Shown: in pieces, positions 10,316 through 50,427 of the stretch
Layout: each line of letters begins with the position of its first letter
How positions within the stretch are numbered: position 1 is the stretch's first letter
DNA from: Paracidovorax wautersii
GTDB lineage: Bacteria; Pseudomonadota; Gammaproteobacteria; Burkholderiales; Burkholderiaceae_C
DNA: 64,000 nt
NCBI RefSeq assembly: GCF_031453675.1
Contig: NZ_JAVIZX010000001.1
Span: forward strand, 2,626,001-2,690,000
Reading direction: 5' to 3'
Notes under the pieces: model-generated
The model's input: the letters and a program-made list of their open reading frames with translations, nothing else
The model's database searches: none
What the model was told of the DNA's origin: nothing
Program-made: the position numbers and the translations under genes

Positions 10316-10389
10316 GGGCGGTTCCGGTGGATCTCTGTGCGGGGCAGGGCACGCGCAGTGCCGTGCAGGCCAGTGTAGGCCCGCTCAGC

Positions 10390-10446
10390 ACGTGTTGACG
10401 ATCTCCCTGCGGCCGCGCAGCGGCATTTGCGAGATCGGCAACACGT
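10390..10446. mobile_element. Short palindromic element related to the 48.9-kb MITE-like element
   Basis: The arms are ACGTGTTGACGATCTC (10390-10405) and GAGATCGGCAACACGT (10431-10446), complementary at 15 of 16 positions. The centre is CTGCGGCCGCGCAGCGGCATTTGC. The left half aligns with the left end of the 267-bp element at 48910: both run CGTGTT.ACGATCT, then GGCCGCGCAG.GG..TTTGCG. It looks like an internally deleted relative. It sits between lysS and the GGDEF gene and ends four bases from the lysS stop codon. Confidence 0.6.
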
Positions 10447-10450
10447 TTTT

Positions 10451-48348: not shown

Positions 48349-48909
48349 ATGAAGGTGGTCGGCTTTGCCGGGTTCTCGGGCAGCGGCAAGACCACGCTGA
48401 TCGCCCAGCTCATCCCGCTGCTGCGCGTACGCGGCCAGCGCGTGTCGGTCGTCAAGCATGCGCACCACCGCTTCGACATCGACCACCCGGGCAAGGACAG
48501 CTGGCGCCACCGCGAGGCCGGTGCCTTCGAGGTGGTGATCGCGTCCGACCGGCGCCTGGCGCTGCTGCGCGAATTCGAGCAGCGGCAGGAGCCCTCGGTG
48601 CACGACCTGCTGGCCGAACTGGACCCGGCCGTGGACTGGGTGCTGGTGGAAGGCTTGAAGGAGGCCGATGTGCCCAAGGTCGAGGTCTGGCGCGCACCGT
48701 CCGCCGATTACGCGGCGCGCCCGGCGCGCTATCCTGAGGACGCCTGGGTGCAGGCCATCGCCACCGATCGTGCCGACCAACTGCCCCAGCCCACGGCGCT
48801 GCCCGTGTTCGACGTGCACGCCCCCACGCCGCTGGCCGACTGGCTGCTGGCCCATGGCCCCCGTTTTGACTATGCACCGCGCGGCGTGCCCGCAGCGCGT
48901 GTGCCGTAA
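48349..48909 (+). CDS. mobB: Molybdopterin-guanine dinucleotide biosynthesis protein MobB
   Basis: MobB is a small GTPase that assists MobA in attaching GMP to molybdopterin. The 186-residue product has P-loop VVGFAGFSGSGKTTLIAQL, VVKHAHHRFDIDHPGKDSW and VDWVLVEGLKEADVPK-type residues. The start at 48349 has AGGAG upstream; an earlier ATG at 48322 has none. moeA and moaD follow across the MITE-like element. Confidence 0.93.
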   Translation: MKVVGFAGFSGSGKTTLIAQLIPLLRVRGQRVSVVKHAHHRFDIDHPGKDSWRHREAGAFEVVIASDRRLALLREFEQRQEPSVHDLLAELDPAVDWVLVEGLKEADVPKVEVWRAPSADYAARPARYPEDAWVQAIATDRADQLPQPTALPVFDVHAPTPLADWLLAHGPRFDYAPRGVPAARVP

Positions 48910-49176
48910 GAACGTGTTTACGATCTTCCAGGGGCCGCGCAGTGGTGTTTGCGGGAGGGGATGCAAGGCGCGGTGCGCAGTGGATAGCTCGGCTATCCAC
49001 AAGCGCCGCAACGCCGCAGACCGCCCGCAAACGCCACTGCCCGAAGGGTTGGAGCGAAATCGGGCGATTGAACGCCTCGAATGCTTGCATGGGCATGAGC
49101 CCATGCGGCGCATCCGAAGCGTCCACTCATTCCGATTGCGCTCCAACGCGACCCCTGCGAGATCGTAAACAAGTTC
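48910..49176. mobile_element. MITE-like element with 30-bp TIRs and nested hairpins
   Basis: 267 bases filling the mobB-moeA gap. The termini 48910-48939 (GAACGTGTTTACGATCT...) and 49147-49176 (...AGATCGTAAACAAGTTC) are complementary at 26 of 30 positions. Inside are two adjoining hairpins. One pairs 48939-48955 with 49024-49040 (16 of 17) around a perfect 9-bp hairpin at 48980-49000 (GTGGATAGC-TCG-GCTATCCAC). The other pairs 49049-49063 with 49132-49146 (14 of 15) around an 8-bp hairpin at 49087-49106. TAA flanks both ends (48907-48909 and 49177-49179), as a target duplication would. No ORF encodes a transposase, so it would need one in trans. A shorter relative lies at 10390-10446. Confidence 0.75.
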
Positions 49177-49191
49177 TAAGGACCTTCTCCG

Positions 49192-50427
49192 ATGCGCCCT
49201 CCGATGAAGCCGCTGGCCGATGCGCTGGCTGATCTGCTGGCCCAGGCCACCCCGTTGGCCGGGACCGACACCGTGGACACCTTCGATGCCGACGGCCGCG
49301 TGCTGCGCGCCGCGGCCGTGTCGCCGCTGCAGGTGCCGCCCCAGGACAACAGCGCCATGGACGGCTACGCCGTGCGCTGCGCCGATGTGGCTGCCGCCGG
49401 CGCCGTGCTGCCGGTGTCGCAGCGCATTCCCGCCGGCAGCCTGGGCACGCCCCTGGCCGCCGGCACGGCCGCCCGCATCTTCACCGGCGCGCCGCTGCCC
49501 GAAGGGGCGGACGCCATCGTCATGCAGGAGGACTGCGAAGCGCTGGACGAGGGCCGCAGCGTGCGCGTGAACGCCGTGCCCGCCGCGCACCAGTGGATCC
49601 GCCGCGCGGGCGAGGACATCGCCCTGGGCGCGCAGGTGCTGGCCGCCGGCACGCGCCTCACGCCCGCCGCCCTGGGGCTGGCCGCCAGCATCGGCCTGGG
49701 CCGGCTGGACGTGGCCCGCCGCCCGCGCGTGGCCCTGTTCTCCACGGGCGACGAACTGGCCATGCCCGGCGAGGTGCCGCCCGAGCAGATGAAGCCCGGC
49801 GCCATCTACAACAGCAACCGCTTCTTTCTGCGCACGCTGCTGCAGCGGCTGGGCTGCGAGGTGACCGACCTCGGCATCGTCCCCGACCGGCGCGATGCCA
49901 CCATCGAGGCGTTGCGCAGCGCCAGCGCCTCGCACGACGTGATCCTGACCAGCGGCGGCGTGTCCGTGGGCGAAGAGGACCACATCAAGCCGGCCGTCGA
50001 AGCGCTGGGCGCGCTGCACCTGTGGCAGATCGCCATGAAGCCGGGCAAGCCTTTTGCCTACGGCCAGATTCCGCGCGCCGGGGGCGTGGCGCACTTCATG
50101 GGGCTGCCGGGCAATCCGGTGTCCAGCTTCATGACCTTTCTGGTGCTGGTGCGGCCCTTTCTGCTGCGCCTGCAAGGCGTGCAGGACGTGGCGCCCAAGG
50201 CGTTTGCCGCCACCGCCGGCTTCGATTTGCCGCGGGCCGACAAGCGGCGCGAATTCCTGCGCGTGCGCCAGGGCGCGGACGGGCGCCTGGAGCTGTTCAG
50301 CCACCAGGGCTCGGGCGTGCTCACCTCCACCGCCTGGGGCGATGGCGTGGTCGACAACCCGCCGGAAACCCCCATCGCGCGTGGCGACACCGTGCGCTTC
50401 ATTCCCTTTGCCGAGCTGATGTCATGA
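49192..50427 (+). CDS. moeA: Molybdopterin molybdenumtransferase MoeA
   Basis: MoeA inserts molybdate into adenylated molybdopterin. The 411-residue product has VPPQDNSAMDGYAVRCADVA, the ATP/molybdopterin-binding SGGVSVGEEDHIKPAVEALG and MKPGKPFAYGQI with FMGLPGNPVSSFMTFLVLVR. ATG at 49192 has AAGGA (49178-49182) nine bases upstream, and this site touches the end of the MITE-like element. moaD overlaps its stop codon as ATGA. Confidence 0.96.
   Translation: MRPPMKPLADALADLLAQATPLAGTDTVDTFDADGRVLRAAAVSPLQVPPQDNSAMDGYAVRCADVAAAGAVLPVSQRIPAGSLGTPLAAGTAARIFTGAPLPEGADAIVMQEDCEALDEGRSVRVNAVPAAHQWIRRAGEDIALGAQVLAAGTRLTPAALGLAASIGLGRLDVARRPRVALFSTGDELAMPGEVPPEQMKPGAIYNSNRFFLRTLLQRLGCEVTDLGIVPDRRDATIEALRSASASHDVILTSGGVSVGEEDHIKPAVEALGALHLWQIAMKPGKPFAYGQIPRAGGVAHFMGLPGNPVSSFMTFLVLVRPFLLRLQGVQDVAPKAFAATAGFDLPRADKRREFLRVRQGADGRLELFSHQGSGVLTSTAWGDGVVDNPPETPIARGDTVRFIPFAELMS

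Follow-up and report, generated by a model that had tools for sequence, protein, structure and literature searches.

The window (the whole stretch of DNA analyzed, 64 kb) contains an element of 267 bp at 48910-49176, between two genes that carry the labels mobB and moeA, as named in the preliminary description of the window. The terminal inverted repeats of the element (left, 48910-48939, + strand; right, 49147-49176, - strand) match at 26 of 30 positions, as that description had it, and 100,000 base shuffles give 19 at most; a repeat finder returns terminal arms of 31 nt at 48909-48939 and 49147-49177, with 87% identity. The first 17-20 bp of the left repeat are common to IS5-family elements of related genomes. 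The TAA reported on either side is likewise present. Its left copy (48907-48909; assigned as one half of a target duplication from sequence, ORFs and flank comparison) is the stop codon of mobB, which the element abuts, again as described; the right copy (49177-49179) merges into an AGGA 5' of moeA, and 12 bases separate it from the moeA start (49192). The element is too short to encode a transposase, and the ORFs of the window that cross 48910-49176 continue from outside.

The interior had been described as two adjoining nested hairpins with perfect inner hairpins of 9 and 8 bp, and the repeat finder bears this out. Hairpin 1 (48940-49039, + strand) consists of an outer stem (arms 48936-48958 and 49021-49043; 23 nt, 87%), conserved internal loops and the apical 9-bp hairpin (48980-49000). 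Hairpin 2 (49048-49147, + strand) consists of an outer stem (arms 49048-49063 and 49132-49147; 16 nt, 94%), a variable middle and the apical 8-bp hairpin (49087-49106). A 3-bp mini-stem, CCC...GGG (49040-49048, + strand; helix 6 of the alignment), lies between the two. The predicted RNA folding energy of the element is -175.9 kcal/mol. Dinucleotide shuffles average -103.4 (sd 5.0), which puts the element at z -14.5; with DNA parameters, z is -11.8. This anatomy and this fold are far beyond chance. The window also contains, at 10388-10448 (+ strand), a 61-bp relic of the same family in which the two ends and the foot of hairpin 1 survive and the remainder of both hairpins is gone.

Copies, flanks and empty sites

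The genome of the window (4.57 Mb) contains at least 40 matches of at least 150 bp (81-100% identity), and 39 of these are close to full length. (This count is a lower bound, since 40 of 89 candidates were scored.) A pattern made from the ends, with up to 2 mismatches allowed, matches this genome 92 times and its reversed control not at all. The 39 full copies are 253-281 bp long, and their two ends are alike at 17.1 of 18 positions on average. Five internally shortened copies (199, 168, 168, 164 and 49 bp) each carry different deletions. A possible 4.3-kb pair of family ends lies at 2552931-2557279 of the same genome, with the 49-bp relic at its left end.

The family extends outside this genome. 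The search for further copies that had been proposed for the element yields many at home, and at least 26 of 299 genomes of the host's family have at least one (match at 1e-10, two candidates scored per genome). Ten genomes searched at 1e-8 give at least 40 matches in one (G065), 23 in another (G262) and 6, 5, 3, 2, 1, 0, 0 and 0 in the others. Named carriers among the matches listed are Acidovorax, Paracidovorax, Polaromonas, Curvibacter, Variovorax, Paucibacter and unnamed Burkholderiales. Plasmid records give one match, in Comamonas odontotermitis, and phage records give none at 1e-5. The load of G065 (2.5 Mb in 230 contigs) is very high (283 candidates, of which the 40 that were scored all matched), and contigs of the Burkholderiaceae MAG Xx448_bin5 are similarly loaded among the matches listed. 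Copies at L163, L176 and L188 (pattern scan, among the matches listed) lie on contigs of a MAG labelled Desulfovibrionaceae; these may be mis-binned contigs or the result of transfer.

Target duplications, which had been suggested as a check, are evident in the flanks. The 3-bp sequences on the two sides are identical in 27 of the 39 full copies of this genome and in 54 of 128 full copies from other genomes, and are then invariably TNA; matching flanks are absent from the remaining 12 of 39 and 74 of 128. TNA adjoins at least one end in 38 of 39 and 110 of 128 copies, respectively. Where the flanks match, a C precedes and a G follows (CTNAG) in 16 of the 27 and 25 of the 54. The target is CTNAG-like, with a 3-bp TNA duplication.

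Relatives also provide the empty sites that had been called for, at one locus. The mobB-moeA gap measures -1 to 24 bp in 15 congeners, compared with 282 bp in the genome of the window, and in a 16th, in which mobB was not matched, no element end is found in the 80 bases 5' of moeA. All 16 of the other genomes of the genus that were examined are without the element at this locus.

IS5-family elements sharing the ends

Elements of ~845 bp in related genomes carry two ORFs that match transpos_IS5_3 (NCBIfam), DUF4096 and DDE_Tnp_1. Paired ends (alike at 13 or more of 18 positions and 700-1100 bp apart) are found at 21 of 27 loci examined, which represent 19 distinct places; a matching TNA duplication is present at 11 of the places and absent from 7, and one is without a left flank. 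The first 20 bp of the element in the window are identical to the end of one IS (L283) and its first 17 bp to the end of another (L282). The end types TTTACGATCT and TTCAAAGTCT occur in ISs as well as in copies of the short element that have the same core. Comparison of the interior of the element with seven IS bodies yields only short matches, with E values of 0.18 or worse. The possibility that the element is a deletion derivative of an IS5 element was rejected, its interior being without notable match to these seven bodies beyond the ends.

The search for a transposase with these ends, which had also been proposed, thus leads to IS5-family elements in relatives and finds none in the genome of the window. 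There, neither DUF4096 (PF13340) nor DDE_Tnp_1 (PF01609) is matched at E 0.001, and the protein sequence of the partner transposase is not matched at 1e-40. At 1e-40, 13 of 299 genomes contain a close relative of the transposase, among them 3 of the 26 carriers of the short element (G088, G065 and G243). In most carriers, therefore, the partner is either absent or more diverged. Among DDE_Tnp_1 loci in 21 carriers, 2 of 30 have ends of the family type. Since no partner is found in the genome of the window, the family is probably an orphan there.

In G065 (L090, 1481-2442), an IS5-family element is inserted at the TGA stop codon of a 485-aa ORF. Directly behind it, with a single TGA shared between the two, lies a 116-bp element that resembles the present one and has related ends. 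In G088 (L112, 1478-2568), the right end of the IS is repeated 245 bp further on, with assembly N in between; a rearrangement or a misassembly is possible.

Judged by its termini, flanks and distribution, the element is in all likelihood a non-autonomous transposon (MITE) whose movement would depend on IS5-family transposases (DUF4096 + DDE_Tnp_1) acting in trans.

Conservation of the fold and selection

Interior and ends together can fold, by prediction, as a three-way junction, and this capacity is conserved across genera; the interior is as unusually ordered as had been surmised. In an alignment of 62 copies with 92 pairs (from which 16 copies that were incomplete or doubtful, including L039, are excluded), 96.8% of the cells are paired, compared with 87.8% in shuffles. 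Both sides have changed at 58 of the 92 pairs (29.4 in shuffles) and covariation amounts to 0.268 (0.107 in shuffles); none of 500 shuffles is as high. Shifting the partner by 1-3 columns lowers the paired share to 36-41%. Watson-Crick changes on both sides are found in at least one copy for 76 of the 92 pairs when all 161 copies are considered, and for 74 of the 92 among 56 cluster representatives. The full fold is nevertheless inessential, because a 201-bp derivative lacking the top of hairpin 2 is present in G065 at two sites (L307 and L309), each with its own duplication.

In the 39 copies of the genome of the window, private substitutions fall alike on paired and unpaired columns (79 in 184 and 37 in 83, respectively). 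Of the 79 at paired columns, 42 end unpaired, compared with 58 expected at random, and 18 restore a pair; where a pair could be broken, 39 of 58 private changes break it, with ~74% expected under random placement. Of the interior pair variants, 20 of the 57 private ones are standard pairs, as are 21 of the 27 that two or more copies share (Fisher p 0.0004). Within the interior, hairpin 1 gives 11 of 31 private and 16 of 19 shared, and in hairpin 2 alone the contrast is weak (9 of 26 private, 5 of 8 shared); the terminal ends give 13 of 31 private and 17 of 22 shared. That shared variants are paired and private variants mostly are not suggests selection on the lineages that spread rather than on copies that have landed. 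With increasing divergence, the fraction of differing interior pairs that stay standard is not monotonic (0.75, 0.58, 0.64, 0.73, 0.74 and 0.64 in successive bins), although two-sided changes climb from 6% to a peak of 59% and stand at 53% in the final bin.

The chances that the fold is selected for propagation, and so has a role in spreading, appear about even on this comparative evidence, and it is more likely that the fold acts as DNA than as host RNA. A more specific proposal, offered tentatively and at rather long odds, is that the folded interior is a cis-acting determinant: a three-way junction of the mobile DNA that would stimulate the DDE (IS5) transposase, perhaps because extrusion of the junction lets the two ends meet. 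If true, this would account for selection on the fold being visible only in spreading copies. For an element of the double-strand DDE type, a boost that depends on the structure of single-stranded or cruciform DNA would be unusual.

Palindromes undergo correction of one arm from the other by template switching. The paired changes might accordingly reflect this mutational process, with no selection on the fold. Gradual arm correction would likewise produce the observed difference between shared variants (presumably the older ones), which are paired, and private variants, most of which are not. Against it stands a stretch of internal loop in hairpin 1 (positions 99-112 of the element) that hardly varies among the 62 copies, even though about half of its positions have no partner; mismatches of this kind would be lost if one arm were corrected from the other. 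The argument is limited to hairpin 1, because the unpaired columns of hairpin 2 are more variable than its paired ones (mean entropy 0.96 versus 0.66). On balance, this alternative to selection is unlikely.

A functional RNA that is cotranscribed with the upstream gene and kept by the host (as a terminator, or a processing or stability element, for example) is an improbable reading of the interior. The predicted RNA fold is very stable, to be sure, and copies often lie directly 3' of genes. G-U cells of the interior outnumber A-C cells in the full set of 161 copies (194 to 155), and in the hairpins of 23 relatives taken alone (33 to 15). The counts from the 161 copies exclude two U-G pairs, one of them the commonest form at its position, in 108 of the 161 copies, and the other poorly kept (66 copies), which are a small point in favor of RNA. 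However, when related copies are down-weighted to the 56 cluster representatives, G-U and A-C cells become nearly equal (72 and 69), as they are among private variants of the genome's own copies, ends included (17 and 18), so that an RNA read from one strand is not indicated. Private variants, moreover, disrupt pairing at close to the random rate, copies at stop codons are oriented 27 to 15 with respect to the gene concerned (p 0.09), the 16 congeners do without the element between mobB and moeA, and Rfam covariance models give no match up to E 1 in 48800-49300. The preliminary description had left the choice between a trans-mobilized element and a structured RNA. Copies, duplications, empty sites and IS ends favor the former; RNA as a host function is not supported, given the near-random breaking of pairs and the lack of a clear orientation bias, of a clear G-U excess and of an Rfam match.

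Stop codons, proposed mechanism and known systems

Of the full copies flanked on each side by 150 bases or more, 15 of 39 in the genome of the window and 27 of 128 elsewhere coincide exactly with a predicted stop codon. Unique copies number 122 among the 128, and 27 of the 122 are at stops. The counts are approximate because the home-made gene caller misses genes. Specific targeting of stop codons, at first a striking idea, is most improbable: although 15 of 39 exceeds the 16-18% expected from TNA alone (p 0.002), and a one-sided motif (CTNA or TNAG) predicts 26-30%, a CTNAG that lies outside coding sequence is often a stop codon anyway (10 of 20 in the window, 18 of 40 in the flanks of copies), 15 of 39 is indistinguishable from 0.45 (p 0.43), the proportion in other genomes is the 27 of 128 already given, and the observation is largely accounted for by a CTNAG-like target together with loss of insertions within genes. 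The true expectation lies between these values, because the full CTNAG is found in only 16 of the 27 own copies with an intact duplication. Frequent insertion at stop codons fits a process that needs no special targeting, with the mix of targets leaving the exact expectation uncertain.

The proposed course of events is that an IS5-family transposase would recognize and bind the ~17-bp ends, cut, and then insert the element into CTNAG. At a stop codon, the 3-bp duplication would restore the stop, and thereby leave the protein unchanged. The fold may aid propagation; in single-stranded or extruded DNA it could, for instance, draw the two ends close to each other. Insertion at stop codons suggests a route into operons such as mob-moe that does not alter proteins. 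The family can be thought of as a natural experiment on ordered interiors of bacterial MITEs, in which comparing private with shared variants tells selection for spreading apart from selection for a host function, by sequence alone.

A literature search, in which subscription journals were thinly covered, found no description of the present family. The record of Polaromonas sp. JS666 carries a copy (L169; among the matches listed), and Mattes and coworkers reportedly described a MITE in this strain in 2008. A review of MITEs cites Mattes et al. 2008 for MITEs in Polaromonas (PMC10969869), and perhaps the present family has already been seen in JS666.

The element is a MITE of a known kind with an unusual interior. 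With IS5-family ISs it shares the first 17-20 bp of the ends, the TNA duplication (which is typical of the IS1031 group within that family) and the CTNAG-like target; it differs from them in its interior, which matches none of the seven IS bodies beyond stretches at chance level. ERIC, Correia/NEMIS and QMITE2 are likewise short, with terminal repeats, small duplications and a foldable transcript, but they differ in ends and targets, and the two-hairpin interior conserved between genera belongs to the present family. Stable stem-loop transcripts are described as typical of MITEs in the same review (PMC10969869). REPINs are described as miniature mobile DNA, with a hairpin that undergoes compensatory change, and as dependent on RAYT tyrosine transposases (PMC3116915). 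In contrast to such RAYT-tied elements, the present family has ends in common with DDE ISs and 3-bp duplications; the duplication and the DDE-type partner speak against its being a REPIN.
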